Source of the DNA: Siphonodentalium dalli | Lineage: Eukaryota > Mollusca > Scaphopoda > Gadilida > Siphonodentaliidae | Assembly: GCA_032622095.1 (NCBI GenBank) | Contig: CP136062.1 | Span: 57,736,420-57,800,419, forward strand | DNA length: 64,000 nt | Reading direction: 5' to 3' | Shown: in pieces, positions 11,266-62,769 of the stretch | How positions within the stretch are numbered: the first letter of the stretch is position 1 | Layout of the letters: the number at the start of each line of letters is the position of its first letter | Notes under the pieces: model-generated | Seen by the model: the letters and a program-made list of their open reading frames with translations, nothing else | The model's database searches: none | Told to the model about the DNA's origin: nothing | Made by a program: the position numbers and the translations under genes

Positions 11266-11292
11266 ATGCATACTGAACAAATATTAACTAAC

Positions 11293-37790: not shown

Positions 37791-38539
37791 TAAACATAAA
37801 AAGGCTTATATATCGTGAGATGTTCCATGTAAGAAATGTTTAACTAATAAGTAATATAGGACCACTTACAATAAAAATAAACACATATAAATAGTGATGG
37901 AATATATGAACAGGACACGCTGTTTGTTATGGGCGTATTCGACTGACAGCTTTAGAAGCCGAACTTAGCCGAGAACATTACGGAACACTTTGGCTTTCAG
38001 CTAAAACTTAAACAAACTGATGTTAGTCCTAATAAACCGCAATATTCTATGTGTAATTTAACATGAAAGTTAGATTATTATACACAATTATGACCAAAAT
38101 ATGTCACTCTTTCAAATATATATAGCATCAGGCATTGATTTGTTAGGAAAAATCAAGTAAAATAGACTAAAATTCCCGCCACCAACACTGGGCATAACTC
38201 ATGTCATACAAATGGTAACGGGACATTCTCGTACTAAAACTAGCATCTCGCTATCCCAATATCTTAATAGCTGGTTTTAGTATGAGCACACTTGGATTAG
38301 GGTTAAACCTTTCATGACTGGATCCTCACATATAAAAGAGAACCCACTGGCACAGGATCTTTAATGCTTCACCAATGCAGTTCCCGTTGAATTTAATTGT
38401 AAATTAATGAGATATCATTTGCTGAATGAGTATTTGGCATTAGACACAATGCAATATCTGTCACAAACTCTTTGATAATTGGAAAGTTGCTGATGAATAG
38501 TTGCTTGATTTCCATCTATTCATTGTTAGGATGTTCAGC

Positions 38540-38693
38540 TACAGTAATGCCCTAAATAATCAACTTCTTAACCACAGCAGAATTATGGGTAATTTCCGAT
38601 GAATGGCAACAAGCCATATTTCTGACTAAATCCTGAAAAATTACCTATAATTCTGCTGTGGTTAAGGAGTCGATTATTTAGGGCATTACTGTA
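38540..38693. mobile_element. B-family MITE, internally deleted
   Basis: The outer inverted ends are intact. The left arm has lost the segment between GGGTAATTT and CCGATGAATGGC. Confidence 0.85.
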
Positions 38694-38934
38694 GTTTGTA
38701 TGGTGAACTTATTATATTAGCCTCCCTACAAATGAATAAATCAATGGGTTGTGTAAAGACCTACTACATTTTGTATCTGCTTGTGTCACCTGAACATTCA
38801 AATTGATCTGGAGAGAAAGTAAAATATACAATTCAGGCTTATATACATTCAGAGCTGGATCAGAGAACAAATTCAAGAATACATTTGGGACGGCAAACCT
38901 GGCACGCAACAAACATCGTTGAGATGATGTCAAG

Positions 38935-39165
38935 CCTTGAAATTGTATGTCTGACATTTGCAAAATAAATCCCCAGAGGGTGAATTTAGTGACGCTATCC
39001 CGAAAAGTGGGCTAGCATCACTGAATTCACCCTCTGGTGACCTCATTCTGCTAAGGCCTCAATTTGGGGTGAATTTGGTGATGCTAGCCCACTGTAGATG
39101 GCACCATCACTAAATTTACCCTCTGGAGACCTCATTCTGCAAATGTCAGACACACTATTTTATTT
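38935..39165. repeat. C-family hairpins in tandem, no core
   Basis: A palindrome at 38945-39058 followed directly by a second, shorter one (39065-39160). Confidence 0.75.
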
Positions 39166-39237
39166 CCAAGCTTGGATGACGTCTACCGTTAACTGCTGTT
39201 GGGAACAATCCCTCATAATGTATATAAGCCTGAGCTT

Positions 39238-39603
39238 AGTGTGCCTGTCATTTGCAGAATGAGGTCCCCAGAGGGTGAATTTAGTGATGCTAGCCCGCTA
39301 TGCTTATCTTCTCTAGAAAATTCCTTTATTATAAAATTTGTATAGAAATTTTTTAGTTTAGTTTCTCTATATCCCCAAATTGGCAAATGACACATGGCAA
39401 AATTGAGGCTCCCAATGGGTGTACATCACAGTATTCACCATTTGGGAACTTCAATCTGAGTCTATGTATCCCATAGCAGATGAGACAATGCAGAATGAGG
39501 AACCCAGAGGGTGAATTTGGTGATGCTAGTCCGCTATGAGGGATAGTGTCACTAAATTCACCTTCTGGGGACCTCATTCTGTAAATGACAGACACATTAA
39601 ACT
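39238..39603. repeat. C-family composite past exon 3
   Basis: A half palindrome, the core in the opposite order (TTGGCAAATGACACATGGC ... CCCATAGCAGATGAGAC) and a full palindrome (39490-39595). It ends about 52 bp past the exon 3 donor. Confidence 0.78.
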
Positions 39604-39654
39604 CAGACTTGAATGTATATGGCATACTGCAGCACACTGTGTTATTTAACTCAC

Positions 39655-39878
39655 CTCACCACAGGACAGATGCCGCATACCATAAGCCGCTGCTCGCCGC
39701 CATCCCTCGTGACCTTTATTGGGTTCCATGTAACTCTGTAGGATTGGAACCGAGCTAGAATGACCAGCATTTCCGATACTATTGATCAGAACCAACTTTG
39801 TGACAATATGCTGTTTTGCTGTTTTATCCCGATCCAAGGCAGATCTCTTTTTACGGAGATTTAGACGATTAGTTTCTT
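39655..39878 (-). CDS. LLTP-like gene, exon 3, helical domain core
   Basis: A 224-bp exon. The acceptor is TATTATACAG before AAGAAAC and the donor is GGTGAG before GTGAGT. It starts in phase 1, matching exon 2, and ends in phase 0. The peptide opens with a basic stretch (LNLRKKRSALDRDK), then carries KLVLINSIGNAGHSSSVPIL and, after a short gap, GWRRAAAYGMRHLSCGE. The GNAGH...IP.L..Y spacing and the W-R-x-A-A helix that follows are the clearest family signature in the window for vitellogenin/apoB-type lipid transfer proteins. LRKKR might be a furin-type basic site, but that is speculation. A hairpin repeat ends about 52 bp past the donor. Confidence 0.85.
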
Positions 39879-39936
39879 CTGTATAATATAAAACGGGTCA
39901 AAAGATTCAGGTTGACCAACTCTCCACCCTCACATA

Positions 39937-40055
39937 ACCCATTCATGGCGGGAGCTGGGCTGCTGCAGCATTTCAGATCCTGTTCCAGTGCATTATCTTA
40001 TATATGTGAGAGTCTCACATAGAGAGCCTTGCATATATAACAGCATGCACTGGCC
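39937..40055. repeat. A-family hairpin, diverged
   Basis: A CCCATTCATGGCGGGAGCTG start, then a hairpin around TCTCACATAGAGAG ending GCATGCACTGGCC. Confidence 0.65.
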
Positions 40056-43000
40056 TACTAGGCAGTCCTCAACATTGGCCACAGCAATAAGCATTGCCAT
40101 GGAAAACGCCATGGCAACATGCGGAACCAAACATGCCACAACATTAAATTTGCCAGGTATAGTGATGAGCCGATGATCGGAAACGACAATCGGAATCGGC
40201 TGATTGTGGCCCATCGGATGACAATCGATACTCGGGTTTCAACATAGTCATTTCCGATTGTCTAAATAATAATCAGGGGCTTGTTTTTCTTCAATAAACT
40301 TTTTTAAATATGATGAAGTTTTGTTGAATAAATGAGCAGTAAACATGGGGAAAGTGATACCAAACACAAACTTGAAATACAGTCATGTCCTCTTAAATAT
40401 CCCGGCCGTACCTGGGTCTCCTATATTACAGTGGGGATCGCCGGGATACTTTGGGTTAGAGCGAGGCTGAGAGGGTTACGCCTTGATTGCGCATACTCAT
40501 AAATTATTGGCAAACCGGAACAGTTGTTTCAGTCGATTGATTTCGTTAGCATGGTGATGTACACAAAGTACATCTCATGGGACTCATGTACGCCGATAGG
40601 TAACTTTATTGTTCGTCAACATGTAGACATTTTGATTTATGTATGTCAGACTATCAAAAATCAAAATGTATGCATACGCAGTACAACAAAGCTATCTATA
40701 TAGAACACGTAAGTTAAGACACACAGCGTAACACATGTATAAACTGGAGAAACCGAAAGTGCATGTCACGTGACATTTAATTGCGCAGCTGACTTCACTG
40801 TTTGTTCAATTAAATTGAGCATAATATAACATGTGTATTAGTTGTCTCCGGCGTGTCGATTGTAAACCATTCCCATAGTTTGCTTTTAAGTTTTGTCTTG
40901 TCCATGATTCCGCGTAATTTCACCCAACACAACTTGTCATTAATGATTAACTTTAAATAGTCGAAGATAATGTCATTCCATCCAGTCAGCGTCAGGTGAC
41001 GCATTGTATAGGTCACCACCAATGATTTTTTTGATGACCACGCCTAAATCAACAAGTTATTATTTTATATATGCGAGGATGGGTTCACATTGTCCTGGAA
41101 ATTCTTTTGGCCAATTTTTTGGCCATATCAGAATTCCTTGAGCCATTTTTCAGAAAGTTTTGCCAAATTGAAAAAAAAAAATATTAGATCATCGAGAAAA
41201 CAGAATCTGAAACAAAAATATAAAGAACACACACTAACATGACTGAAAATCTTTGAGTTGGACAATGGAAATGCACACAAATGGGAACAACAAAACATGA
41301 AATAGGTCTAGTATATCAAAGCAGGAAAGTGATTACGAAAGTACACTGTTCTAGCATTTGATCAACATTATGATGGTAAGTATAAGCATGCACGACTTTA
41401 GATAAATTGTTGTTCATAAACAGGCTAGCAACTGATGATTACCTGTTAACATATTAAGGGTTGCATGGAGATCTGATGATAATTTGAGAGGTGATTGCTG
41501 ACTACCTGTTAACAGATTAAGGGTTGCATGGAGATCTGATGTTAATTTGAGAGGTGATTGTTGATTACCTGATAACATATTAAGGGTTGCATGGAGATCT
41601 GATGATAATTTGAGAGGTGATTGCTGACTACCTGTTAACAGATTAAGGGTTGCATGGAGATCTGATGATATTTTGAGAGGTGATTGCTGATAACCTGATA
41701 ACAGATTAAGGGTTGCATGGAGATCTGATGATAATTTGAGAGGTGATTGTTGATTACCTGATAACAGATTAAGGGTTGCATGGAGATCTGATGATGATTT
41801 GAGAGGTGATTGCTGATTACCTGTTAACAGATTAAGGGTTCCATGGAGATCTGATGATAATTTGAGAGGTGATTGTTGATTACCTGATAACAGATTAAGG
41901 GTTGCATGGAGATCTGATGATAATTTGAGAGGTGATTGCTGATTACCTAATAACAGATTAAGGGTTCCATGGAGATCTGATGATAATTTGAGAGGTGATT
42001 GCTGATTACCTGATAACGGATTAAGGGTTGCATGGAGATCTGATGATAATTTGAGAGGTGATTGCTGACTACCTGTTAACAGATTAAGGGTTGCATGGAG
42101 ATCTGATGATATTTTGAGAGGTGATTGCTGTTTACCTGATAACGGATTAAGGGTTGCATGGAGATCTGATGATAATTTGAGAGGTGATTGTTGTTTACCT
42201 GTTAACAGATTAAGGGTTTCATGGAGATCTGATGATAATTTGAGAGGTGATTGTTGATTACCTGATAACAGATTAAGGGTTGCATGGAGATCTGATGATA
42301 ATTTGAGAGGTGATTGCTGATTACCTGATAACGGATTAAGGGTTGCATGGAGATCTGATGATAATTTGAGAGGTGATTGCTGATTACCTGTTAACAGATT
42401 AAGGGTTCCATGGAGATCTGATGATAATTTGAGAGGTGATTGCTGATTACCTGATAACGGATTAAGGGTTGCATGGAGATCTGATGATAATTTGAGAGGT
42501 GATTGCTGACTACCTGTTAACAGATTAAGGGTTGCATGGAGATCTGATGATATTTTGAGAGGTGATTGCTGTTTACCTGATAACGGATTAAGGGTTGCAT
42601 GGAGATCTGATGATAATTTGAGAGGAGATTGCTGATTACCTGATAACAGATTAAGGGTTCCATGGAGATCTGATGATAATTTGAGAGGTGATTGCTGTTT
42701 ACCTGATAACAGATTAAGGGTTCCATGGAGATCTGATGATAATTTGAGAGGTGATTGCTGATTACCTGATAACAGATTAAGGGTTGCATGGAGATCTGAT
42801 GATAATTTGAGAGGTGATTGCTGATTACCTGTTAACAGATTAAGGGTTGCATGGAGATCTGATGATAATTTGAGAGGTGATTGCTGATTACCTGATAACA
42901 GATTAAGGGTTGCATCGAGATCTGATGATAATTTGAGAGGTGATTGCTGTTTACCTGATAACAGATTAAGGGTTCCATGGAGATCTGATGATAATTTGAG

Positions 43001-46000
43001 AGGTGATTGCTGATTACCTGATAACAGATTAAGGGTTGCATGGAGATCTGATGATAATTTGAGAGGTGATTGCTGATTACCTAATAACAGATTAAGGGTT
43101 CCATGGAGATCTGATGATAATTTAAGAGGTGATTGTTGATTACCTGATAACATATTAAGGGTTGCATCGAGATCTGATGATAATTTGAGAGGTGATTGCT
43201 GATTACCTGATAACAGATTAAGGGTTGCATGGAGATCTGATGATAATTTGAGAGGTGATTGCTGATTACCTGATAACAGATTAAGGGTTGCATCGAGATC
43301 TGATGATAATTTGAGAGGTGATTGCTGATTACCTGATAACAGATTAAGGGTTGCATGGAGATCTGATGATAATTTGAGAGGTGATTGCTGATTAACTGAT
43401 AACAGATTAAGGGTTCCATGGAGATCTGATGATAATTTAAGAGGTGATTGTTGATTACCTGATAACAGATTAAGGGTTCCATGGAGATCTGATGATAATT
43501 TGAGAGGTGATTGCTGATTACCTGATAACAGATTAAGGATTGCATGGAGATCTGATGATAATTTGAGAGGTGATTGCTGATTAACTGATAACAGATTAAG
43601 GGTTCCATGGAGATCTGATGATAATTTAAGAGGTGATTGTTGATTACCTGATAACAGATTAAGGGTTCCATGGAGATCTGATGATAATTTGAGAGGTGAT
43701 TGCTGATTACCTGATAACAGATTAAGGGTTGCATGGAGATCTGATGATAATTTGAGAGGTGATTGTTGATTACCTGATAACAGATTAAGGGTTCCATGGA
43801 GATCTGATGATAATTTGAGAGGTGATTGCTGATTACTTGATAACAGATTAAGGGTTGCATGGAGATCTGATGATAATTTGAGAGGTGATTGCTGATTACC
43901 TGTTAACAGATTAAGGGTTCCATGGAGATCTGTCTGATCTGATGATAATTTGAGAGGTGATTGCTGATTACCTGTTAACAGATTAAGGGTTGCATGGAGA
44001 TCTGATGATAATTTGAGAGGTGATTGTTGATTACCTGATAACAGATTAAGGGTTCCATGGAGATCTGATGATAATTTGAGAGTTGATTGTTGATTACCTG
44101 ATAACAGATTAAGGGTTCCATGGAGATCTGATGATAATTTGAGAGGTGATTGCTGATTACCTAATAACAGATTAAGGGTTGCATGGAGATCTGATGATAA
44201 TTTGAGAGGTGATTGCTGATTACCTAATAACATATTAAGGGTTCCATGGAGATCTGATGATAATTTGAGAGGTGATTGCTGATAACCTGATAACAGATTA
44301 AGGGTTGCATGGAGATCTGATGATAATTTGAGAGGTGATTGCTGATTACCAAATAACATATTAAGGGTTCCATGGAGATCTGTCTGATCTGATGATAATT
44401 TGAGAGGTGATTGCTGATTACCTGATAACAGATTAAGGGTTGCATGGAGATCTGATGATAATTTGAGAGGTGATTGCTGATTACCTGTTAACAGATTAAG
44501 GGTTCCATGGAGATCTGATGATAATTTGAGAGGTGATTGCTGATTACCTGTTAACAGATTAAGGGTTGCATGGAGATCTGATGATAATTTGAGAGGTGAT
44601 TGCTGATTACCTGATAACGGATTAAGGGTTCCATGGAGATCTGTCTGATCTGATGATAATTTGAGAGGTGATTGTTGATTACCTGATAACAGATTAAGGG
44701 TTGCATGGAGATCTGATGATAATTTGAGAGGTGATTGCTGATTACCTGATAACAGATTAAGGGTTGCATGGAGATCTGATGATAATTTGAGAGGTGATTG
44801 CTGATTACCTGTTAACAGATTAAGGGTTGCATGGAGATCTGATGATAATTTGAGAGGTGATTGCTGATTACCTGATAACGGATTAAGGGTTGCATGGAGA
44901 TCTGATGATAATTTGAGAGGTGATTGCTGATTACCTGTTAACAGATTAAGGGTTCCATGGAGATCTGTCTGATCTGATGATAATTTGAGAGGTGATTGCT
45001 GATTACCTGTTAACAGATTAAGGGTTGCATGGAGATCTGATGATAATTTGAGAGGTGATTGTTGATTACCTGATAACAGATTAAGGGTTGCATGGAGATC
45101 TGATGATAATTTGAGAGGTGATTGCTGATTACCAAATAACATATTAAGGGTTCCATGGAGATCTGTCTGATCTGATGATAATTTGAGAGGTGATTGTTGA
45201 TTACCTGATAACAGATTAAGGGTTGCATGGAGATCTGATGATAATTTGAGAGGTGATTGCTGATTACCTGATAACAGATTAAGGGTTCCATGGAGATCTG
45301 TCTGATCTGATGATAATTTGAGAGGTGATTGCTGATTACCTGATAACAGATTAAGGGTTCCATGGAGATCTGATGATAATTTGAGAGGTGATTGCTGATT
45401 ACCTGATAACAGATTAAGGGTTGCATGGAGATCTGATGATATTTTGAGAGGTGATTGTTGATTACCTGATAACAGATTAAGGGTTGCATGAAGATCTGAT
45501 GATAATTTGAGAGGTGATTGTTGATTACCTGATAACAGATTAAGGGTTGCATGGAGATCTGATGATAATTTGAGAGGTGATTGCTGATTACCTGATAACA
45601 GATTAAGGGTTGCATGGAGATCTGATGATAATTTGAGAGGTGATTGCTGATTACCTGTTAACAGATTAAGGGTTCCATGGAGATCTGTCTGATCTGATGA
45701 TAATTTGAGAGGTGATTGCTGATTACCTGATAACAGATTAAGGGTTCCATGGAGATCTGATGATAATTTGAGAGGTGATTGCTGATTACCTAATAACATA
45801 TTAAGGGTTCCATGGAGATCTGATGATAATTTGAGAGGTGATTGCTGATAACCTGATAACAGATTAAGGGTTGCATGGAGATCTGATGATAATTTGAGAG
45901 GTGATTGTTGATTACCTGATAACAGATTAAGGGTTCCATGGAGATCTGATGATACTTTGAGAGGTGATTGCTGATTACCTAATAACAGATTAAGGGTTGC

Positions 46001-49000
46001 ATGGAGATCTGATGATAATTTGAGAGGTGATTGTTGATTACCTGATAACGGATTAAGGGTTGCATGGAGATCTGATGATACTTTGAGAGGTGATTGCTGA
46101 TTACCTAATAACAGATTAAGGGTTGCATGGAGATCTGATGATAATTTGAGAGGTGATTGCTGATTACCTAATAACATATTAAGGGTTCCATGGAGATCTG
46201 ATGATAATTTGAGAGGTGATTGCTGATAACCTGATAACAGATTAAGGGTTGCATGGAGATCTGATGATAATTTGAGAGGTGATTGCTGATTACCTAATAA
46301 CATATTAAGGGTTCCATGGAGATCTGATGATAATTTGAGAGGTGATTGCTGATAACCTGATAACAGATTAAGGGTTGCATGGAGATCTGATGATAATTTG
46401 AGAGGTGATTGCTGATTACCTAATAACATATTAAGGGTTCCATGGAGATCTGTCTGATCTGATGATAATTTGAGAGGTGATTGCTGATTACCTGATAACA
46501 GATTAAGGGTTGCATGGAGATCTGATGATAATTTGAGAGGTGATTGCTGATTACCTGATAACAGATTAAGGGTTCCATGGAGATCTGATGATAATTTGAG
46601 AGGTGATTGCTGTTTACCTGATAACAGATTAAGGGTTGCATGGAGATCTGATGATAATTTAAGAGGTGATTGCTGATTACCTAATAACAGATTAAGGGTT
46701 GCATGGAGATCTGATGATAATTTGAGAGGTGATTGCTGATTACCTAATAACATATTAAGGGTTCCATGGAGATCTGATGATAATTTGAGAGGTGATTGCT
46801 GATAACCTGATAAGATATTAAGGGTTGCATGGAGATCTGATGATATTTTGAGAGGTGATTGCTGATTACCTAATAACAGATTAAGGGTTCCATGGAGATC
46901 TGATGATAATTTGAGAGGTCATTGCTGATTACCTAATAACAGATTAAGGGTTGCATGGAGATCTGATGATAATTTGAGAGGTGATTGTTGATTACCTGAT
47001 AACATATTAAGGGTTCCATGGAGATCTGATGATAATTTGAGAGGTGATTGCTGATTACCTGTTAACAGATTAAGGGTTCCATGGAGATCTGATGATAATT
47101 TGAGAGGTGATTGCTGATTACCTGTTAACAGATTAAGGGTTGCATGGAGCTCTGATGATAATTTGAGAGGTGATTGCTGATTACCTGATAACAGATTAAG
47201 GGTTGCATGGAGATCCGATGATAATTTGAGAGGTGATTGCTGATTACCTGTTAACATATTAAGGGTTGCATGGAGATCTGATGATAATTTGAGAGGTGAT
47301 TGCTGATTACCTGATAACATATTAAGGGTTCCATGGAGATCTGTCTGATCTGATGATAATTTGAGAGGTGATTGTTGATTACCTGATAACATATTAAGGG
47401 TTCCATGGAGATCTGATGATAATTTGAGAGGTGATTGCTGATTACCTGTTAACAGATTAAGGGTTGCATGGAGATCTGATGATAATTTGAGAGGTGATTG
47501 CTGATTACCTGTTAACAGATTAAGGGTTGCATGGAGATCTGATGATAATTTGAGAGGTGATTGCTGATTACCTGTTAACAGATTAAGGGTTGCATGGAGA
47601 TCTGATGATAATTTGAGAGGTGATTGCTGATTACCTGATAACAGATTAAGGGTTCCATGGAGATCTGATGATAATTTGAGAGGTGATTGCTGATTACCTG
47701 TTAACAGATTAAGGGTTGCATGGAGATCTGATGATAATTTGAGAGGTGATTGCTGATTACCTGTTAACATATTAAGGGTTGCATGGAGATCTGATGATAA
47801 TTTGAGAGGTGATTGCTGATTACCTGTTAACAGATTAAGGGTTCCATGGAGATCTGATGATAATTTGAGAGGTGATTGCTGATTACCTGTTAACAGATTA
47901 AGGGTTGCATGGAGATCTGATGATAATTTGAGAGGTGATTGCTGATTACCTGATAACAGATTAAGGGTTGCATGGAGATCCGATGATAATTTGAGAGGTG
48001 ATTGCTGATTACCTGTTAACATATTAAGGGTTGCATGGAGATCTGATGATAATTTGAGAGGTGATTGCTGATTACCTGATAACAGATTAAGGGTTCCATG
48101 GAGATCTGTCTGATCTGATGATAATTTGAGAGGTGATTGTTGATTACCTGTTAACAGATTAAGGGTTCCATGGAGATCTGATGATAATTTGAGAGGTGAT
48201 TGCTGATTACCTGTTAACAGATTAAGGGTTGCATGGAGATCTGATGATAATTTGAGAGGTGATTGCTGATTACCTGATAACAGATTAAGGGTTGCATGGA
48301 GATCCGATGATAATTTGAGAGGTGATTGCTGATTACCTGTTAACATATTAAGGGTTGCATGGAGATCTGATGATAATTTGAGAGGTGATTGCTGATTACC
48401 TGATAACAGATTAAGGGTTCCATGGAGATCTGTCTGATCTGATGATAATTTGAGAGGTGATTGTTGATTACCTGATAACATATTAAGGGTTCCATGGAGA
48501 TCTGATGATAATTTGAGAGGTGATTGCTGATTACCTGTTAACAGATTAAGGGTTGCATGGAGATCTGATGATAATTTGAGAGGTGATTGCTGATTACCTG
48601 TTAACAGATTAAGGGTTGCATGGAGATCTGATGATAATTTGAGAGGTGATTGCTGATTACCTGTTAACAGATTAAGGGTTGCATGGAGATCTGATGATAA
48701 TTTGAGAGGTGATTGCTGATTACCTGATAACAGATTAAGGGTTCCATGGAGATCTGATGATAATTTGAGAGGTGATTGCTGATTACCTGTTAACAGATTA
48801 AGGGTTGCATGGAGATCTGATGATAATTTGAGAGGTGATTGCTGATTACCTGTTAACATATTAAGGGTTCCATGGAGATCTGATGATAATTTGAGAGGTG
48901 ATTGCTGATTACCTGTTAACATATTAAGGGTTCCATGGAGATCTGATGATAATTTGAGAGGTGATTGCTGATTACCTGTTAACATATTAAGGGTTCCATG

Positions 49001-52000
49001 GAGATCTGATGATAATTTGAGAGGTGATTGCTGATTACCTGTTAACAGATTAAGGGTTGCATGGAGATCTGATGATAATTTGAGAGGTGATTGCTGATTA
49101 CCTGTTAACATATTAAGGGTTCCATGGAGATCTGATGATAATTTGAGAGGTGATTGCTGATTACCTGTTAACAGATTAAGGGTTGCATGGAGATCTGATG
49201 ATAATTTGAGAGGTGATTGCTGATTACCTGTTAACATATTAAGGGTTCCATGGAGATCTGATGATAATTTGAGAGGTGATTGCTGATTACCTGTTAACAT
49301 ATTAAGGGTTCCATGGAGATCTGATGATAATTTGAGAGGTGATTGCTGATTACCTGTTAACAGATTAAGGGTTGCATGGAGATCTGATGATAATTTGAGA
49401 GGTGATTGCTGATTACCTGATAACAGATTAAGGGTTGCATGGAGATCCGATGATAATTTGAGAGGTGATTGCTGATTACCTGATAACAGATTAAGGGTTG
49501 CATGGAGATCTGATGATAATTTGAGAGGTGATTGCTGATTACCTGATAACAGATTAAGGGTTGCATGGAGATCCGATGATAATTTGAGAGGTGATTGCTG
49601 ATTACCTGATAACAGATTAAGGGTTGCATGGAGATCCGATGATAATTTGAGAGGTGATTGCTGATTACCTGATAACAGATTAAGGGTTGCATGGAGATCT
49701 GATGATAATTTGAGAGGTGATTGCTGATTACCTGATAACAGATTAAGGGTTGCATGGAGATCTGATGATAATTTGAGAGGTGATTGCTGATTACCTGTTA
49801 ACAGATTAAGGGTTCCATGGAGATCTGTCTGATCTGATGATAATTTGAGAGGTGATTGCTGATTACCTGATAACGGATTAAGGGTTGCATGGAGATCTGA
49901 TGATAATTTGAGAGGTGATTGCTGATTACCTGATAACAGATTAAGGGTTGCATGGAGATCCGATGATAATTTGAGAGGTGATTGCTGATTACCTGTTAAC
50001 ATATTAAGGGTTGCATGGAGATCTGATGATAATTTGAGAGGTGATTGCTGATTACCTGATAACAGATTAAGGGTTGCATGGAGATCTGATGATAATTTGA
50101 GAGGTGATTGCTGATTACCTGTTAACATATTAAGGGTTCCATGGAGATCTGTCTGATCTGATGATAATTTGAGAGGTGATTGCTGATTACCTGATAACGG
50201 ATTAAGGGTTGCATGGAGATCTGATGATAATTTGAGAGTTGATTGTTGATTACCTAATAACATATTAAGGGTTCCATGGCGATCTGATGATAATTTGAGA
50301 GGTGATTGCTGATAACCTGATAACAGATTAAGGGTTGCATGGAGATCTGATGATAATTTGAGAGGTGATTGCTGATTACCTAATAACATATTAAGGGTTC
50401 CATGGCGATCTGATGATAATTTGAGAGGTGATTGTTGATTACCTGATAACAGATTAAGGGTTGCATGGAGATCTGATGATAATTTGAGAGGTGATTGTTG
50501 ATTACCTAATAACAGATTAAGGGTTGCATGGAGATCTGATGATAATTTAAGAGGTGATTGCTGATTACCTAATAACAGATTAAGGGTTGCATGGAGATCT
50601 GGTGATAATTTGAGAGGTGATTGCTAATTACCTAATAACATATTAAGGGTTCCATGGAGATCTGATGATAATTTGAGAGGTGATTGCTGACTACCTGTTA
50701 ACAGATTAAGGGTTGCATGGAGATCTGATGATAATTTGAGAGTTGATTGCTGATTACCTGTTAACAGATTAAGGGTTGCATGGAGATCTGATGATAATTT
50801 GAGAGGTGATTGCTGATTACCTGATAACAGATTAAGGGTTGCATGGAGATCTGATGATAATTTGAGAGGTGATTGCTGATTACCTGATAATGAATTAAGG
50901 GTTTCATGGAGATCTGATGATAATTTGAGAGGTGATTGCTGATTACCTGTTAACAGATTAAGGGTTGCATGGAGATCTGATGATAATTTGAGAGGTGATT
51001 GCTGATTACCTAATAACAGATTAAGGGTTCCATGGAGATCTGATGATAATTTGAGAGTTGATTGCTGATTACCTGATAACGGATTAAGGGTTGCATGGAG
51101 ATCTGATGATGATTTGAGAGGTGATTGCTGATTACCTAATAACAGATTAAGGGTTCCATGGAGATCTGATGATAATTTGAGAGTTGATTGCTGATTACCT
51201 GATAACGGATTAAGGGTTGCATGGAGATCTGATGATAATTTGAGAGATGATTGCTGATTACCTGATAATGAATTAAGGGTTTCATGGAGATCTGATGATA
51301 ATTTGAGAGGTGATTGCTGATTACCTGTTAACAGATTAAGGGTTGCATGGAGATCTGATGATAATTTGAGAGGTGATTGCTGATAACCTGATAACGGATT
51401 AAGGGTTGTATGGAGATCTGATGATAATTTGAGAGGTGATTGCTGATTACCTAATAACAGATTAAGGGTTGCATGGAGATCTGATGATAATTTGAGAGGT
51501 GATTGCTGATTACCTAATAACAGATTAAGGGTTCCATGGAGATCTGATGATAATTTGAGAGTTGATTGCTGATTACCTAATAACAGATTAAGGGTTGCAT
51601 GGAGATCTGATGATAATTTGAGAGGTGATTGCTGATTACCTGATAACGGATTAAGGGTTGCATGGAGATCTGATGATGATTTGAGAGGTGATTGCTGATT
51701 ACCTGATAACGGATTAAGGGTTCCATGGAGATCTGATGATAATTTGAGAGGTGATTGCTGATTACCTGATAATGAATTAAGGGTTTCATGGAGATCTGAT
51801 GATAATTTGAGAGGTGATTGCTGATTACCTAATAACAGATTAAGGGTTCCATGGAGATCTGATGATGATTTGAGAGGTGATTGATGATTACCTGTTAACA
51901 GATTAAGGGTTGCATGGAGATCTGATGATAATTTGAGAGGTGATTGCTGATTACCTAATAACAGATTAAGGGTTCCATGGAGATCTGATGATAATTTGAT

Positions 52001-54110
52001 AGTTGATTGCTGATTACCTGATAACAGATTAAGGGTTCCATGGAGATCTGATGATATTTTGAGAGGTGATTGCTGATTACCTGTTAACAGATTAAGGGTT
52101 CCATGGAGATCTGATGATATTTTGAGAGGTGATTGCTGATTACCTGTTAACAGATTAAGGGTTCCATGGAGATCTGATGATATTTTGAGAGGTGATTGCT
52201 GATTACCTGTTAACAGATTAAGGGTTCCATGGAGATCTGATGATATTTTGAGAGGTGATTGCTGATTACCTGTTAAAAGATTAAGGGTTCCATGGAGATC
52301 TGATGATAATTTGAGAGGTGATTGCTGATTACCTGTTAACAGATTAAGGGTTGCATGGAGATCTGATGATAATTTGAGAGGTGATTGTTGATTACCTAAT
52401 AACAGATTAAGGGTTCCATGGAGATCTGATGATAATTTGAGAGGTGATTGCTGATAACCTGATAACAGATTAAGGGTTGCATGGAGATCTGATGATAATT
52501 TGAGAGGTGATTGCTGATTACCTGATAACAGATTAAGGGTTGCATGGAGATCTGATGATAATTTGAGAGGTGATTGCTGATTACCTGTTAACAGATTAAG
52601 GGTTCCATGGAGATCTGATGATATTTTGAGAGGTGATTGCTGATTACCTAATAACAGATTAAGGGTTGCATGGAGATCTGATGATAATTTGAGAGGTGAT
52701 TGCTGATTACCTGATAACAGATTAAGGGTTGCATGGAGATCTGATGATAATTTGAGAGGTGATTGCTGATTACCTAATAACAGATTAAGGGTTCCATGGA
52801 GATCTGATGATAATTTGAGAGTTGATTGCTGACTACCTGTTAACAGATTAAGGGTTGCATGGAGATCTGATGATAATTTGAGAGGTGATTGCTGATTACC
52901 TGATAACGGATTAAGGGTTGCATGGAGATCTGATGATAATTTGAGAGTTGATTGCTGATTACCTAATAACAGATTAAGGGTTGCATGGAGATCTGATGAT
53001 AATTTGAGAGGTGATTGTTGATTACCTGATAATGGATTAAGGGTTCCATGGAGATCTGATGATAATTTGAGAGGTGATTGCTGATTACCTAATAACAGAT
53101 TAAGGGTTCCATGGAGATCTGATGATATTTTGAGAGGTGATTGCTGATTACCTAATAACAGATTAAGGGTTGCATGGAGATCTGATGATGATTTGAGAGG
53201 TGATTGCTGATTACCTAATAACAGATTAAGGGTTGCATGGAGATCTGATGATGATTTGAGAGGTGATTGCTGATTACCTAATAACAGATTAAGGGTTCCA
53301 TGGAGATCTGATGATATTTTGAGAGGTGATTGCTGATTACCTAATAACAGATTAAGGGTTGCATGGAGATCTGATGATGATTTGAGAGGTGATTGCTGAT
53401 TACCTAATAACAGATTAAGGGTTGCATGGAGATCTGATGATGATTTGAGAGGTGATTGCTGATTACCTAATAACAGATTAAGGGTTCCATGGAGATCTGA
53501 TGATATTTTGAGAGGTGATTGCTGATTACCTAATAACAGATTAAGGGTTGCATGGAGATCTGATGATATTTTGAGAGGTGATTGCTGATTACCTGATAAT
53601 GGATTAAGGGTTGCATGGAGATCTGATGATAATTTGAGAGGTGATTGCTGATTACCTAATAACAGATTAAGGGTTGCATGGAGATCTGATGATATTTTGA
53701 GAGGTGATTGCTGATTACCTAATAACAGATTAAGGGTTGCATGGAGATCTGATGATATTTTGAGAGGTGATTGCTGATTACCTGATAATGGATTAAGGGT
53801 TGCATGGAGATCTGATGATATTTTGAGAGGTGATTGCTGATAACCTGATAACAGATTAAGGGTTGCATGGAGATCTGATGATAATTTGAGAGGTGATTGC
53901 TGATTACCTGATAACATATTAAGGGTTGCATGGAGATCTGATGATAATTTGAGAGGTGATTGCTGATTACCTGATAACAGATTAAGGGTTGCATGGAGAT
54001 CTGATGATAATTTGAGAGGTGATTGCTGATAACCTGATAATGGATTAAGGATTCATGGAGATCTGATGATAATTTGAGAGTTGATTGCTGATAACCTGAT
54101 AACAGATTGA

Positions 54111-54491
54111 CCCTTTACCCAACAAACCGGCCAAATAAAGCTTCAACAGCCAAAAATATCTTCGGTCTGTCTCAATAGAATCATACAAATATGGATATCA
54201 TTGGAACCGGCTCCTTGACCACATTGTGATAGTTACAATTATGCCCTGTGCCAATGCATTCTCTTATATATGCGAGTCGACCATAGGTCGCCTCGCATAT
54301 ATAAGAGAATGCAACGGCCTAAAAAAAATCTTTTTTTTAACACTTTTTACCAATTTTTCTTACATTCTTTAACAATTTTATAATTTTTAATGTGTTAAGC
54401 CAATGCATTCTCTTATATATGCGAGGCAACCTATGGTCGACACATATATAAGAGAATGCATTGGCACAGGGCCCTTCTGTTGGGTAAAGGG
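54111..54491. mobile_element. Palindromic MITE inserted in the satellite (copy 1)
   Basis: A non-satellite insertion bounded by perfect 14-bp inverted termini, CCCTTTACCCAACA and TGTTGGGTAAAGGG. It carries two A-family hairpins (TCTTATATATGCGAG arms) near 54250-54310 and 54400-54470 with a T-rich spacer. The satellite resumes on the right at TTGCATGG. The CCC terminus beside a TTAA-like site (TTGA on the left) is of piggyBac type. Confidence 0.8.
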
Positions 54492-55622
54492 TTGCATGGA
54501 GATCTGATGATAATTTGAGAGGTGATTGCTGATTACCTGATAACGGATTAAGGGTTGCATGGAGATCTGATGATAATTTGAGAGGTGATTGCTGATTACC
54601 TGATAACAGATTAAGGGTTGCATGGAGATCTGATGATATTTTGAGAGGTGATTGCTGATTACCTGATAACGGATTAAGGGTTGCATGGAGATCTGATGAT
54701 AATTTGAGAGGTGATTGCTGATAACCTAATAACAGATTAAGGGTTGCATGGAGATCCGATGATAATTTGAGAGGTGATTGCTGATAACCTGATAACAGAT
54801 TAAGGGTTGCATGGAGATCTGATGATAATTTGAGAGGTGATTGCTGATAACCTGATAACAGATTAAGGGTTCCATGGAGATCTGATGATAATTTTGAGAG
54901 GTGATTGTTGATTACCTGATAACAGATTAAGAGTTGCATGGAGATCTGATAATAATTTGAGAGGTGATTGCTGATTACCTGGTAATGAATTAAGGGTTGC
55001 ATGGAGATCTGATGATAATTTGAGAGGTGATTGCTGATTACCTGATAACAGATTAAGGGTTGCATGGAGATCTGATGATAATTTGAGAGGTGATTGCTGA
55101 TTACCTGATAACGGATTAAGGGTTGCATGGAGATCTGATGATAATTTGAGAGGTGATTGCTGATTACCTGTTAACAGATTAAGGGTTGCATGGAGATCTG
55201 ATGATAATTTGAGAGGTGATTGCTGATTACCTGATAACAGATTAAGGGTTGCATGGAGATCTGATGATAATTTGAGAGGTGATTGCTGATTACCTGATAA
55301 TGGATTAAGGGTTGCATGGAGATCTGATGATAATTTGAGAGGTGATTGATGATTACCTGATAACAGATTAAGGGTTGCATGGAGATCTGATGATAATTTG
55401 AGAGGTGATTGTTGATTACCTGATAACAGATTAAGGGTTCCATGGAGATCTGATGATAATTTGAGAGGTGATTGCTGACTACCTGATAACAGATTAAGGG
55501 TTGCATGGAGATCTGATGATAATTTGAGAGGTGATTGCTGATAACCTGATAACGGATTAAGGATTCATGGAGATCTGATGATAATTTGAGAGTTGATTGC
55601 TGATAACCTGATAACAGATTGA

Positions 55623-56013
55623 CCCTTTACCCAACAAACCGGCCAAGACCGGACAAATAAAGCTTCAACAGCCAAAAATATCTTCGGTCTGTCTCAATAG
55701 AATCATACAAATATGGATATCATTGGAACCGGCTCCTTGACCACATTGTGATAGTTACAATTATGCCCTGTGCCAATGCATTCTCTTATATATGCGAGTC
55801 GACCATAGGTCGCCTCGCATATATAAGAGAATGCAACGGCCTAAACAAAATCTTTTTTTTAACACTTTTTACCAATTTTTCTTACATTCTTTAACAATTT
55901 TATAATTTTTAATGTGTTAAGCCAATGCATTCTCTTATATATGCGAGGCAACCTATGGTCGACACATATATAAGAGAATGCATTGGCACAGGGCCCTTCT
56001 GTTGGGTAAAGGG
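55623..56013. mobile_element. Palindromic MITE inserted in the satellite (copy 2)
   Basis: Nearly identical to 54111-54491 except for a 10-bp addition (near 55650), with the same 14-bp termini and the same position in the monomer. It lies 1512 bp from copy 1, so it arose by duplication of array plus insertion rather than by a second jump. Confidence 0.82.
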
Positions 56014-56452
56014 TTGCATGGAGATCTGATGATAATTTGAGAGGTGATTGCTGATTACCTGATAACGGATTAAGGGTTGCATGGAGATCTGATGATATTT
56101 TGAGAGGTGATTGCTGATTACCTGATAACAGATTAAGGGTTGCATGGAGATCTGATGATATTTTGAGAGGTGATTGCTGATTACCTGATAACGGATTAAG
56201 GGTTGCATGGAGATCTGATGATAATTTGAGAGGTGATTGCTGATAACCTAATAACAGATTAAGGGTTGCATGGAGATCTGATGATAATTTGAGAGGTGAT
56301 TGCTGATTACCTGATAACGTATTAAGGGTTCCATGGAGATCTGACGATCATTTGAGAGGTGATTGTTCAATAGCCTTGAAACTTTTGGCCAAATGAAATT
56401 TTCTTCGGCCATTTAAAAAAAAACAGTGTGAACCTTGTTTGAAAGGCTCGCA

Positions 56453-56682
56453 TACAGTAATGCCCTAAATAATCGACTCCTTAACCACAGCAGAATTATG
56501 GGTAATTTTTCAGGATTTAGTTGGAAATATGGCTTGTTGCCAGCTGTTGTTGCCATTCATTGGAAAGTTCTCAGTGAGAGCTTTCCGATGAATGCCAACA
56601 AGCCATATTTCCGACTAAATCCTGAAAAGTTACCCATAATTCTGCTATGGTTAAGGAGTCGATTATTTAGGGCATTACTCTA
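56453..56682. mobile_element. B-family MITE, complete, right end interrupted
   Basis: A 230-bp hairpin with a small internal addition (CAGCTGTTGTTGC near 56540). Its right end reads ACTC then TA, where the foldback element at 56683 begins. Confidence 0.85.
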
Positions 56683-57391
56683 TAAACACATCAAAAAAAG
56701 AAAGTCCCCTCCTAATATATTTGGTAATATTTTATGAGATATTCGATGGATTTTGACAAAACTTTACGCAAATAAAGTGGTATCTGAGACACAACCTGTG
56801 CGAGGCACCATCCTGTGAGTTATGTTAATATGGCCAGCTGAGCCCGAATTGAATGGAAGGGTGCTTTTCAAAAGTTGCAAAACACTGACATAGAGTGGAC
56901 AGCCACTCCAGTGTTCCATTGTTCACACAAGTTGTTACTGGCTGTAAATGTGGTCCAAAAGTGACACTGTGAGTCCACGTTAACATGTGTGTCATCTTAC
57001 ACCTTGAAGTTTCACGCCGTGAGGAACACAGAGTTATTGAAATCAGTCTCTTTGAAGCCATTTTTTCAGTAAACCGTGTTTCCCACCATGTAGGCCATTG
57101 AGTTACCAACAGATAAGGATGTTCCAAGCCTGTGCGAGAAGTGGGGTCCAAGGCACAGCCGAATGGACTGTGATCATTCTACCTGTATTTTTGCAACTTT
57201 TGAAAAGTGCCCCTATTCTATTCAATTCGTGCTCACTCAGCCATAGCTCACCTCACAGCACAGTGCTTAGCTCACTTGATGTCTCTGGTACCACAAATCA
57301 TTTGTGGAAAGTTTCATTAAAATCCGATTAAATATCTCCAAAAATATTACAGAATATATTAGGGGGGGACTTTCTTTTTTTGAGGTGTTTA
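56683..57391. mobile_element. Foldback element with TA target duplication
   Basis: Inverted ends TAAACACATCAAAAAAAGAA and, reversed from the right, TAAACACCTCAAAAAAAGAA, extending about 38 bp to TAATATATT. TA flanks both sides (56681-56682, 57392-57393). Inner regions are also inverted (GAATTGAATGGAAGGGTGC against GCCCCTATTCTATTCAATTC), so the element is one long imperfect hairpin. It sits in the right end of a B-family MITE. Confidence 0.78.
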
Positions 57392-57753: not shown

Positions 57754-57863
57754 AATTTGGCCAGAAGTGACTCCTTGGACAGATAGATTGTTTAAAGATT
57801 TGCATTGGACAAAATGTCCGACAGATACAGAAGTGTACTGGACATAAGCTATTTTTTGTCAGA
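57754..57863. repeat. 110-bp target-site duplication, left copy
   Basis: Identical base for base to 60691-60800. It starts AATTTGGCCAGAAGTGACTC and ends TTTTTTGTCAGA. The two copies bracket the LINE exactly. Confidence 0.92.
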
Positions 57864-60690
57864 CAATGACCGTGACCGGCCACTTATTTTGAGCCTTGAT
57901 GAAATTGACTATGACTATGACTATGATTATTTATTCATAACTCATTCATATGATATTTACAATTATATACACAGTGTAATAGTATAACATTCAATGAGCT
58001 ATCGGGGACAGCATAACCAAGAAGGTTGTCTACCTGCCGTCCCCGTTGAAAAGTAATATAACTATACATGTAATAATAATTTTAATTTATCTAGGTTTTG
58101 TCTTGTTAACTTTAAAAATTGGTATATAAATGTCTGTTTTTTAATAAATAATAGTATAATTCGTTTGTCGTTCACCGTTCATCGCTCAGTTTGTGATATG
58201 GTATGTAAAGTACAAGCATGTGGAGTATGGATATGTGGATGAGGCCAGCGGAGAATGATAATTGTTTAACCAATGGGTCGGACAAGGCATTCGAATAATA
58301 CATTCATGTATTTCCTGCGATAGGGTGATGATGCACTTGTATTATCTATCATTCTCTCTTGTTATACAATGTCAGTTATCGCTATACGAATATTATACTA
58401 CTTATTACACATCGTTGCAGTCAGGACAATTTTTGTATGTACATTTGGGATTCAGTTGATATGAAGATAGCCTATTTCGAGAGTAATCATTTTTGAACAT
58501 TGTTCGTGTTGGAAGACGTTTTAGTTTGTCGTCCAGGGAATTCCACATCTTCGGAAGATAGTGTTCTGGTAAGTTTTCCGAGAAGACACTTTTCGGTGTC
58601 CCAGATTTGAGCATACCATCTTGTCGCGTGTCATTTTGGGAACTTGTGAAGAAATTTTCAAATGAATTTGGTAACTGGTCATGAAACCAGTCATGCACAA
58701 TGAGATTTGAATGCAGGGTATAGATATCATTAAATTTTAAAATGTCATTTGTTTTAAATAGCGGATCTGTGTGACTATTGTATTTTTTATTGTTTATTAT
58801 GCGCATGGATTTTTTCTGCAGTTTGAATACTCTATCACTTTTATTCGAATTTCCCCATATATGTATAGCATACATCAAATGACTGTGAACTATTGCATAG
58901 TATAACGATTTGAGTGCTTCGCGTGGTAAGAAGTGCTTAATTTTATTCAGACTATAATTTGCGCTGGCAATTCTAGCGCACACATGATTTATGTGATGAT
59001 GAAATTTCAAATTTTCATCCAATTTCACACCTAAATATGTTAATGATTGTTCGTGTCTCGTGTTACCAACCTGTGTAATTTCGGTGTTGTTGATCCTAAG
59101 TGATAGATTATCGCCCCTATGCGAGTTGTTCATAGGATGAAAGAGAATATATTTACATTTTGAAGGATTTATTTGTATATAATTTGCACAACACCATTCG
59201 AAGAATTTTGCTATTTCGGTATTCATATACGCTTTTAAGTCGTGTGTGTTATTACCATATGTATATAGGGTTGTGTCGTCAGCAAATGAAAGTAGCGAGA
59301 GGGTGGTTGCATCTTTCATGTCGTTAACGTAAATTAGAAAAAGAAGAGGTCCTAAAATTGACCCCTGGGGCACTCCACAACTAACATCTAAAGTTTCAGA
59401 GAGGGTATTTTTAAAGCATACACATTGTTGTCTATTAACTAAATAGCTACGAAACCAGTCGTTTGTAAGACCTATAATTCCATAGTGGGATAGTTTAGAT
59501 AAGAGTATTTCATGATTTATAGAGTCAAATGCTTTCGAAAAATCAACTAATAATGCTAATGTTGAATCTCTAGATATTTGGTCATTATTTTGTGCAACTG
59601 AACTTAGGAGTTGAATTATTGGATGGTAGGTTGAGTGTTTGCTACGAAAACCATACTGGTGTTCGTACAATATATCATTGTCGTTAAGAAAGTCTCTGAG
59701 TCTGATGGCCATTATTTTTTCCATAATTTTGGAAAATATAGGAAGTATACTTATCGGTCGATAATTATTGAAATTAGAATTATCGCCCTTTTTAAAGACT
59801 GGAATAACTTTCGCCAGTTTCATGTCATCTGGAAATTTACCCACTTTGAATGAACGATTAATTATGTGGACTAGTGGTTGTGCTACTTCATTAATTGTTA
59901 CTTTCATAAGTTTGCTGGAAATATTATTTAAATCAAGAGTATGTTTTGGTTTTATTTTGAATGCTGTTAGGATTACTTCTTGCTCATTTGTAGGGAGAAG
60001 TTTAAAAATATGTGGATAATGGCCCGTAAGATAATCTACATGTGAGTTTTCAGTATGAGGTATCGAGTTGACTATGTTGTGTCCAACATTAACGAAGAAT
60101 GAATTGAAATGGGATGCAATATCTTTTGGGTCAGATATGCGTTCGCCGTTGTTGATGAATTCGTTTGGTGGTATGACTGATGATTTATTCTTGCTGATTA
60201 TACTTCTAAGGATTTTCCAAGTGGCTTTCATGTTGCCCCTGTTTTCATTGAAAATATTCTTATATTAAAGCGATTTACTCTTCCTGATGACTTTATTATA
60301 TATATTGCAGAATGTTTTATATTTTTTTATGTTTAGATCGGTTGGATTTTTTAGTTTCGTTCTATATAGTTTGTTTTTTGTATGCGAAGACGTTAGGACT
60401 CCAGAAGTGATCCAAGGATTTTGTTTTATGAATCTTTTAGGGATGTGAATATTAGTTACTGGGAAGGCTGTATGGAATGCATCGGTATACGTTGTAATAA
60501 ATCTGTTGTATGATTCGTTTGGACACTGGCAATTGTATACATCATCAAACGATGATGTGGTAAGAATTTGTTTGAACAAGTTCATATTTTTTTGTGAATA
60601 AACTCGCCGATCACGCGTAGAGCTCATAAGTGGCGCCGGTGATTTAGTCCCATGCATGTAGAAACATGCCAAATGATCAGAAACATCGGT
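57864..60690 (-). mobile_element. 5'-truncated Jockey/CR1-like LINE
   Basis: A minus-strand non-LTR retrotransposon between two perfect 110-bp direct repeats. It begins (at the 60690 end) inside the endonuclease domain, keeping only its last motif (SDH within TDVSDHLACF). It then carries the full linker, RT and C-terminal region, and ends at 57864 after a TATGAC/CATAGT short tandem repeat near 57910-57935. The tail is a microsatellite-like run, not poly(A). The element is 2.83 kb, so the 5' half is missing. Confidence 0.88.
58405..60672 (-). pseudogene. LINE ORF2: endonuclease end plus reverse transcriptase
   Basis: One continuous frame of about 755 codons with a single nonsense codon (TAA at 60265-60267). 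After the stop the same frame runs on for 11 codons to a Met at 60231 and then 608 residues. Counting from that Met: NNYRPISILPIFSKIMEKI at about 155-173 (RT fingers), LVDFSKAFDSI at about 228-238 (motif A, catalytic Asp), CGVPQGSILGPLLF at about 285-298 (motif B), SFADDTTLY at about 315-323 (motif C). A Cys-rich end (CTYKNCPDC) follows just before the stop. It would copy LINE RNA into DNA at a nick. With the endonuclease lost by 5' truncation and a stop present it cannot be autonomous. The near-intact frame suggests a recent insertion. Confidence 0.9.
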
Positions 60691-60800
60691 AATTTGGCCA
60701 GAAGTGACTCCTTGGACAGATAGATTGTTTAAAGATTTGCATTGGACAAAATGTCCGACAGATACAGAAGTGTACTGGACATAAGCTATTTTTTGTCAGA
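60691..60800. repeat. 110-bp target-site duplication, right copy
   Basis: The right-hand copy of the direct repeat at 57754-57863. The bases outside differ on both sides (CAATGTCC/CATCGGT before, CAATGACC/AATTTGAT after), so the duplication ends cleanly. Confidence 0.92.
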
Positions 60801-61226
60801 AATTTGATAGATCATGTCATGAATCTCTACTCAGATCTAGAGTCAATGCCCATAGAGATCATATATAATGTATTCCACCAGTTCAAAACCTGGGAATTTT
60901 TTAGAAGTTCTGACAGGCAACTTTAATTTATAACATTGAAGAAATAATGAAGGAAATGTATTTCTTAGTAAATAACTGTTCCCTAATCATTTATTTCAAA
61001 GTAGGTGAAGGTTCCAGCTTGAGGTTGCATGATTTAGGCGACAGTCAGAAATAGAAATCCTATGTTTTCTCTTTGTGGATGTATGGTTTTCCTTATTTAA
61101 TCTCTTAGTTTTTGAGTTGATTGTCCTAATAATCATATATTTTGATTTCCATTATCATATACAGAAGCTTGGTCTACAAGGTTGTTTACTCTTCCATCAC
61201 TGGAGCTTCATCAAATTTTGCGAAAG

Positions 61227-61362
61227 CCCTGTGCCAATGCATTCTCTTATATATGGGAGTCGCCCTAACAATATTTACCTTGACCTTGTAAGCCAGTGAA
61301 TTCTCTTATATATGCAAGGCTCCCTATGGGATACTCGAATATATAAGATAATGCACTGGCAC
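61227..61362. repeat. A-family hairpin pair
   Basis: CCCTGTGCCAATGCATTCTC followed by TTATATATGGGAGTC, then a second hairpin with CTTATATATGCAAGGCTCCC and ATATATAAGATAATGCACTGG. Confidence 0.7.
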
Positions 61363-61432
61363 ATAATCTTAAAGACATATTATATGTACTTATTCGGGTG
61401 CGTGAAACTGATAAGTTAGTATTCATGCACTG

Positions 61433-61755
61433 TGACAACTGGAGTCTGGAGGAATGTAACATTCTACTAACATCGCCAAAAATTTGAAGCAAATCGTCCA
61501 TACCACTCCATTGAAAACATTGTCAGAACTATGCTCAATTGTAAATATTTACTACTCGATTCGGGACGCATCTATTGACGGCAAACTAACGGAAACGATT
61601 TTGCCATGGAGAGTCACTGCATTAATTATTATATAAGAATGACGGTGTGTGTTGTCAATTTGGATATACTATTTGTAAAAAATACCACTTTGAACAAGAT
61701 AATTCTTCATTTCTATTTGATCACCATCCGGAGTGTTTCACATCACTTTAATGCT
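61433..61755. repeat. Dispersed 370-bp repeat, copy 3
   Basis: Same orientation as copy 1. It continues into CTGCACCAGCGCAGCTCCCG and ATGAAAGGGTTAA (about 61790), which shows the natural right end of the element. Confidence 0.7.
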
Positions 61756-61873
61756 GCACCAGCGCAGCTCCCGTCATGAAAGGGTTAAGCAATCCTATTT
61801 TTTTTTCTTTGTGGTTGTCTAATTTTCCTTATTTGATCACTTCGTTTGTGGTTCAGTTGTCCTAATACTCATA

Positions 61874-62090
61874 TACAGTAATGCCCTAAATAATCGACTC
61901 CTTAACCACAGCAGAATTATGGGTAACTTTTTAGGATTTAGACGGACATATGGCTTGTTGCCATTCAACGGAAAGCTCTCAGTGAGAGCTTTCCAATGAA
62001 TGGCAACAAGCCATATTACCGACTAAATCCAGAAAAGTTACACATAATTCTGCTGTGGTTAAGGAGTCGCTTATTTAGGGCATTACTGTA
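61874..62090. mobile_element. B-family hairpin MITE, complete (217 bp), next to exon 2
   Basis: The same length and structure as 3640-3856, with TA at both edges. It ends 55 bp beyond the exon 2 donor. Confidence 0.9.
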
Positions 62091-62145
62091 TGGGTTTCCA
62101 ATTTTGCATCCGGAAGCTTTGTAGACAAGGTTGTTAGAATATTAC

Positions 62146-62292
62146 CTTCATTGAATGGCTGGAGATAGTGCTCAAGCTTCTTCCGGAGTCTCGCTGCTTC
62201 TTCAGATTTAGATGTTTCGTGAAGATTCTTAGCGATAGAACCCAGTGCGAGGCACGCTCTTTTCTGTGTTTTAGAGTCCATCAGAGACTTCA
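62146..62292 (-). CDS. LLTP-like gene, exon 2, HEAT-like helices
   Basis: A 147-bp internal exon of phase 1 at both ends. The acceptor is TTATATTAACAG before TGAAG and the donor is GAAG before GTAATA. The peptide includes SKTQKRACLALGSIAKNL, then a charged helix with EEAARLRKKLEHYL. An LALGS-type motif followed by a basic/acidic helix is common in the helical (Vitellogenin_N) domain of lipid transfer proteins. The next coding base downstream is 22.3 kb away. A palindromic MITE ends 55 bp beyond the donor, at 62090. Confidence 0.78.
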
Positions 62293-62761: not shown

Positions 62762-62769
62762 ACCAAGTC

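Follow-up and report, generated by a model that had tools for sequence, protein, structure and literature searches.

A 15-kb tandem array in an intron of a Siphonodentalium dalli gene, probably grown in place from the core of a hAT-like element

The window analysed here is a stretch of 64,000 nucleotides from the scaphopod mollusc Siphonodentalium dalli (GenBank assembly GCA_032622095.1, contig CP136062.1, positions 57,736,420 to 57,800,419 of the forward strand). Its minus strand carries exons of a gene with a marginal likeness to the Vitellogenin_N family, and the intron between exons 2 and 3 of this gene holds a 15-kb array of a 63-bp unit. The array lies between the arms of a non-autonomous, hAT-like element that is dispersed through the genome, and it was probably the core of this element that multiplied within the intron. 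The features that carry the argument are listed below, with the exons numbered as in a preliminary description that was made from the sequence alone; MITE stands for miniature inverted-repeat transposable element.

41435-56370, plus strand: 63-bp tandem array, 223 anchor units, 13 spacings of 72 bp
41079-56437, plus strand: copy of the hAT-like non-autonomous element, about 15.4 kb, core expanded, worn ends ATGGGTTCACATTG ... CAGTGTGAACCTTG
41079-41434, plus strand: left arm of the element, matching the upstream flanks of dispersed copies
56371-56437, plus strand: right arm of the element, matching the downstream flanks of dispersed copies inside the element
54111-54491, no strand assigned: palindromic MITE in the array, ends CCCTTTACCCAACA / TGTTGGGTAAAGGG, from sequence and alignment
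55623-56013, no strand assigned: second copy of the palindromic MITE, within a recent duplication of array DNA
62146-62292, minus strand: exon 2 of the Vitellogenin_N-type gene, AG/GT borders, in-phase junction
39655-39878, minus strand: exon 3 of the Vitellogenin_N-type gene, AG/GT borders, in-phase junction

Tandem Repeats Finder reports the array as two stretches of period 63, the first at 41436-55620 (223.3 copies, 91% matches, score 23013) and the second at 56009-56365 (5.7 copies). Decomposition into units places 223 anchors in 41434-56370. Among the 222 spacings between them, 204 measure 63 bp, 13 measure 72 bp, two 62 bp and one 64 bp, and the remaining two (441 and 451 bp) contain insertions. 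These two analyses, together with the colinear gene described below, confirm the preliminary description of a 15-kb, 63-bp array within an intron of a protein-coding gene. Its figure of about 225 copies is borne out by the anchors, and its edges, 41420 and 56371, are correct for the array, while the carrier element is slightly larger at about 41079-56437. The length given is that of the assembly, and its exact value is uncertain.

The array is well mixed internally. The 204 exact 63-bp monomers show a mean pairwise identity of 94.7% and fall into 83 distinct sequences, and the number of differences out of 63 varies little with distance (3.06, 2.87 and 3.30 at lags 1, 2 and 150). Higher-order repeats were considered and set aside, as no regular higher-order unit was seen and the differences depend little on lag. 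Block duplications do exist within the array, since at lag 17 up to 6 monomers in a row are identical, while none of 200 shuffles gave a run of more than 4.

Palindromic insertions of about 0.4 kb break the array at two places. They are copies of one MITE, which we take to be piggyBac-like, and when aligned over 393 bp they differ by one substitution and one 10-bp indel. The stretch that bears the MITE recurs at an offset of 1,512 bp (24 units) to the left of the indel and of 1,522 bp to its right; at the latter offset the identity is 0.93-1.0 per 60-bp step over 54140-54799 and then drops to 0.77. Because this 1.5-kb duplication is near-identical, the length of the array has changed recently, and a copy number that varies between individuals, as the preliminary description supposed, is plausible and may affect splicing or expression of the gene. 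As a separate observation, the MITE sits inside an array unit, perhaps at a TTAA, and was copied along with the array.

The arms beside the array identify its carrier. The left arm matches the upstream flanks of 15 of 17 dispersed copies compared (E up to 1e-3), the copies L011 and L017 giving no match, and the right arm matches the downstream flanks of 12 of the 17. The closest relative is a copy with a single unit, L008, which agrees with the left arm at 75.9% over 373 columns (E 5e-74) and with the right arm at 90.4% over 52 columns. Farther out, the dispersed copies end in the inverted sequences CAGGGTTCACGCTG / CAGCGTGAACCCTG. Terminal inverted repeats of the CAGGG type with 8-bp target duplications are the mark of hAT elements, and inverted ends of this or a similar kind are present in the dispersed copies. 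Both ends were found in 10 of 33 loci, where the 8-bp flanks agree at a mean of 4.2 of 8; shuffled flank pairs give a mean of 2.53 (s.d. 0.52) and reached 4.2 in 9 of 5,000 shuffles. Near-matching flanks (6-8 of 8) occur in five of the ten scored copies (L008, L014, L019, L021 and L032), so that a target-site duplication is seen for the family, though not for the window copy. From the inverted ends and 8-bp flanks of its dispersed copies, the element family appears hAT-like. Inverted ends and target duplications of this sort are not known from the rolling-circle Helentrons, and as both are seen in the dispersed copies, the family does not fit a Helitron or Helentron.

The first 25 bases of the left end have 313 matches in the genome at up to 3 mismatches (a reversed control has 0), although some among the matches listed come from a CAGTG sister group. 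Ends of a second type, CAGTGTTCACGCTGGCCCAGAAATT, stand at many places in the genome and suggest that the element has a sister subfamily. Separately, at C6:227.66-227.93 Mb the left end recurs at at least 7 places between 227659628 and 227928371, spaced 36-47 kb apart, which suggests the tandem duplication of a large block.

Copies of the element elsewhere show the core in both states. A genome search with a 401-bp piece of the array returned, among the matches listed, arrays on other contigs as well as stretches of about 72 bp that stand alone and have fixed ends. Seventeen loci of the latter sort were compared, twelve with one unit and five with about three or four, along with a further 16 loci in which the core is expanded; in most of both sets, the core unit stands single or arrayed beside the same arms. 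Other arrays of the 63-bp unit lie on C4 and C9. The expanded cores include units of 63 bp x 124 (L021), 63 x 35 (L022), 68 x 91 (L025), 92 x 58 (L026), 62 x 31 (L027) and 40 x 23 (L029), with units of 32-33 bp in L031, L034, L035 and L036, giving an overall range of about 30-92 bp. By manual reading of coordinates, 12 of these 16 loci have an arm no more than about 60 bp from the array, and four of the 12 (L021, L025, L026 and L032) have both arms there. The locus L021 forms a complete element, 8,958 bp long, in which 124 core units stand between ends that show 3 and 3 mismatches of 14; its 8-bp flanks agree at 6 of 8.

The gene around the array was traced by comparison with a compact paralogue at C2:168108500-168144000. 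In this comparison, many short matches to dispersed repeats were set aside, and the frames searched were those that start outside the array. The paralogue has 11 coding stretches colinear with the minus strand of the window from 63445 down to 1371, and therefore exons 2 and 3 belong to one gene. The other nine stretches, all with approximate edges, are the following, with identities to the compact paralogue.

63362-63445, minus strand: coding stretch upstream of exon 2, 53.6% over 28 aa, the weakest of the eleven
31523-31636, minus strand: exon 4, 81.6% over 38 aa
30540-30794, minus strand: exon 5, 64.7% over 85 aa
24204-24368, minus strand: exon 6, 72.7% over 55 aa
19554-19943, minus strand: exon 7, 52.6% over 137 columns
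11292-11435, minus strand: exon 8, 81.3% over 48 aa
9838-9924, minus strand: exon 9, 69.0% over 29 aa
5363-5548, minus strand: exon 10, 59.7% over 62 columns
1371-1529, minus strand: exon 11, 64.2% over 53 aa

No additional colinear coding stretch appeared in 9.6 kb beyond the window, and the amino-terminal exons are unplaced. That exons 2 and 3 flank the array and join in phase, as first described, agrees with their AG/GT borders and with the colinear paralogue. The joined peptide of the two exons matches Vitellogenin_N (PF01347) at 24.7 bits against a cut-off of 24, while the frame of exon 3 alone reaches 16.2 bits and that of exon 2 alone has no match. Joining the exons thus adds Vitellogenin_N signal, although the membership is marginal. 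In a genome search with PF01347 the window locus was not among the places listed, and Pfam gave no family above its cut-off for three downstream exons. As an aside, three places at C3:179.22-179.41 Mb match Vitellogenin_N with equal scores, about 90-95 kb apart; a vitellogenin-type gene has probably been copied there recently.

A genome search with the joined peptide found three more places on the same contig with both exons in order. In the window 22,267 bp separate exons 2 and 3; the corresponding introns of L001, L002 and the compact copy (C2:168.12 Mb) have 1,556, 2,020 and 570 bp. Over the two exons, comparison of the window with L001 shows 5 silent changes at 84.5 sites and 1 replacement change at 284.5 sites (pS 0.059, pN 0.004), and the window and the compact paralogue have a pS of 0.764 and a pN of 0.133. 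Since pS exceeds pN in both comparisons, exons 2-3 look constrained, with small numbers for the nearest pair.

The nearest paralogue, L001, holds the record of the element in this intron. With matches taken beyond window position 39000 or longer than 150 bp, it is colinear with the window at 38220-40080 (91.6%), 41207-41312 (84.9%) and 60893-64000 (96.0%), the middle match falling inside the left arm of the element. L001 retains a stump of the element of about 130 bp. This stump has ten bases in common with L008 that are missing from the window copy, so it was not copied from the present state of the window. Most likely, the same ten bases mean that the element was in the intron before the gene was duplicated and that L001 later lost the rest. 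By manual reading, the stump junction CAAAGCAG|GAATTTTTTAG has GGAA common to both sides, as expected of a microhomology deletion. The other paralogue, L002, has no match to the element arms or the unit, and so it can serve neither for firm dating nor as a clean empty site.

From this evidence a single account can be assembled. A non-autonomous hAT-like element would have inserted between exons 2 and 3 before the gene was duplicated on the same chromosome. Its core, which is single in many dispersed copies, would then have multiplied in place to about 225 copies through unequal exchange or replication slippage. Growth in place is argued from the varying number of copies, from the block duplications and from the 1.5-kb duplication of recent date. 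A possible seed is a pair of imperfect 9-bp direct repeats: in 8 of 12 single-unit copies the best 9-mer matches (6-8 of 9) stand 63 bp apart, but 417 of 2,000 random stretches reach 7 of 9 or more, and the copies share descent. The array still changes length, and it would be transcribed with the rest of the intron and spliced out along with it. The array, its arms, the dispersed copies with one unit, the arrays of other units elsewhere, the gene model and the introns of the paralogues are observed; we infer in what order things happened, that exchange or slippage was at work, and that the array is transcribed and spliced out. We regard the account as a whole as very probable.

The preliminary description treated the array as a long satellite of the kind usually found in heterochromatin. 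A related explanation is that a pre-existing centromeric or heterochromatic satellite reached the intron through transposition or translocation. A long, homogeneous 63-bp array and the further 63-bp arrays on C4 and C9 would fit such an origin, but the array starts and stops in the arms of the element. Its units are also each other's closest relatives. In a comparison of the window with 21 loci, the units of the four largest 63-bp arrays cluster by locus, and units with nearest neighbours exclusively in their own array numbered 222 of 223 in the window, 122 of 124 in L021 and 10 of 11 in L024; in L022 they numbered 17 of 32, with 13 more tied with others. The units were cut without allowing for indels, which inflates the distances between arrays (10.5% for the window, against 5.3% by decomposition), and the nearest-neighbour outcome alone was used. 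Moreover, the unit is scarce. A 30-mer of it has 728 matches in the assembly at up to 3 mismatches (a reversed control has 0), of which 209 lie in the window and 109 in L021. The unit thus does not form abundant, very long arrays of a centromeric or heterochromatic kind in the assembly, although the assembly may have gaps and lack centromeres, and the search with the 401-bp piece scored part of its candidates. We consider a moved satellite very improbable, and the heterochromatic reading gives way to that of an internal repeat of a dispersed hAT-like element, amplified in place.

A fault of the assembly, either in the number of array copies or in their placement within the gene, has a similarly small chance of being the explanation. 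Long tandem arrays are easily misassembled. Here, however, both edges of the array pass into the element arms, and the DNA on both sides is colinear with the paralogue locus. Within the array, the assembly resolves the two 0.4-kb insertions and the single substitution and 10-bp difference between them, and the same structure recurs at other loci.

A bolder version grants the element origin and adds a function. In it, the family of hAT-like MITEs would be a nursery of satellites, with varied units from one core and an intron about 14 times that of the nearest paralogue, and the unit would supply a ladder of AG|GT sites like those of recursive splicing (CAG|GTAA), along which the array is shed stepwise, so that changes in length are tolerated. 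On the gene strand the array does hold 153 copies of CAGGTAA, a motif present in 32 of 20,000 shuffled units. However, this motif is a property of the transposon unit and is no evidence of selection; the fuller donors AGGTAAGT and AGGTGAGT occur in 0 and 0 array units. AATAAA and ATTAAA were also counted on this strand, with 0 and 2 in the array against 1.54 and 0.95 per kb in the rest of the window, and this near-absence is unremarkable because 18,193 of 20,000 shuffled units lack both. The combined proposal of a nursery and a splicing ladder seems to us a long shot.

Least credible of all, at a chance close to nil, is that the array encodes a protein of 21-residue repeats on the gene strand, for example as an alternative exon: 63 is divisible by 3, the consensus is stop-free in two minus-strand frames and open frames run to 1,834, 1,234 and 1,142 residues, but the distinct substitutions in the one stop-free frame tested (10 silent, 29 replacement and 2 stop) lie near the 9.9, 27.3 and 3.8 expected without selection, and the same core is expanded elsewhere at 62, 68, 92, 40 and 32 bp. 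The neutral pattern, with these periods that are not multiples of 3, leads us to reject a coding role for the tested frame.

Several observations weigh against the account of an inserted element with a core expanded in place. The ends of the window copy are worn, with 4 and 2 mismatches of 14 to CAGGGTTCACGCTG / CAGCGTGAACCCTG by eye, and its flanks ATGCGAGG / TTTGAAAG agree by eye at 3 of 8, so that no target duplication of 8 bp stands out. In the other five of the ten scored copies, the 8-bp flanks agree at just 0-3 of 8. Among the 16 expanded loci, L029 and L030 have no arm detected beside the array, and the arm matches of L034 and L036 fail to flank it properly. The single-unit state may itself be a collapsed array instead of the ancestor. 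The paralogue lacks the part that would hold the array, which may or may not have been long before the gene was duplicated. As for the host gene, its Vitellogenin_N match is barely above the cut-off, and a phmmer search with the peptide of exons 2 and 3 found no relative among solved structures.

Other repeats share the window with the array. In the same intron, at 57754-60800 on the minus strand, lies an element resembling a long interspersed nuclear element, whose frame runs uninterrupted for about 619 aa and scores 120 bits against RVT_1. It stands between two identical copies of a 110-bp direct repeat (57754-57863 and 60691-60800) and is thus a recent insertion, one whose target duplication is unusually long. 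Another repeat, palindromic and about 220 bp long (TACAGTAATGCCCTAAATAATCGACTCCTTA...), lies at 56452-56684, 61873-62091 and 3638-3856, among other places, and also in the paralogue loci.

Arrays that grow inside transposable elements are known from other animals. The element miDNA4 of Xenopus tropicalis is a Tc1/mariner MITE with an internal satellite (Scalvenzi and Pollet 2014, via PMC12628747 and PMC9659126). Its satellite unit may be present once or in arrays that differ in length, and short direct repeats have been proposed to seed them (PMC12628747, PMC9659126). The present family is like miDNA4 in that a core unit is single or arrayed inside a MITE. It differs from miDNA4 in that the element is hAT-like and holds about 225 units in one copy, in that different copies expanded different stretches of the core at periods of about 30-92 bp, and in that the largest array seen sits in an intron of a conserved gene. 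In bivalves, Helentron and pearl elements carry core repeats, and they likewise present dispersed, satellite-like arrays between the conserved ends of a non-autonomous element (PMC7492417, PMC12628747).

The position of the array also has parallels. The Drosophila Y genes kl-3 and kl-5 are described with gigantic introns that contain satellite DNA and extend over megabases; there, as here, an intronic satellite array must be transcribed through and spliced out (PMC6508621). In contrast to those megabases in Y-linked genes, the window holds 15 kb of a 63-bp unit derived from a transposon. In Tribolium, elements of the TCAST satellite lie near genes, through dispersal of a major pericentromeric satellite, and so resemble the present case as satellite-like DNA in euchromatin, near or within genes (PMC3411249, PMC4537270). 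Unlike TCAST as portrayed there, the unit described here was born in a transposon and is rare elsewhere. No report of the core of a hAT-like MITE expanded into an intronic array was found in searches of open-licence papers. The mode of expansion is already known from miDNA4, and the window locus is a large intronic case of it that stands out by how many units a single copy holds and by how varied the units of its family are.

The element family displays the stages of satellite birth within one genome, as a single unit, short arrays and long arrays stand between the same arms, and it presents different units that arise from one core. The duplicated gene also invites comparison, as a stump of the element without the array survives in its nearest paralogue. 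The locus thereby allows the effect of a long, transposon-derived intronic array on a conserved gene to be tested, together with the pace at which the length of such an array changes.

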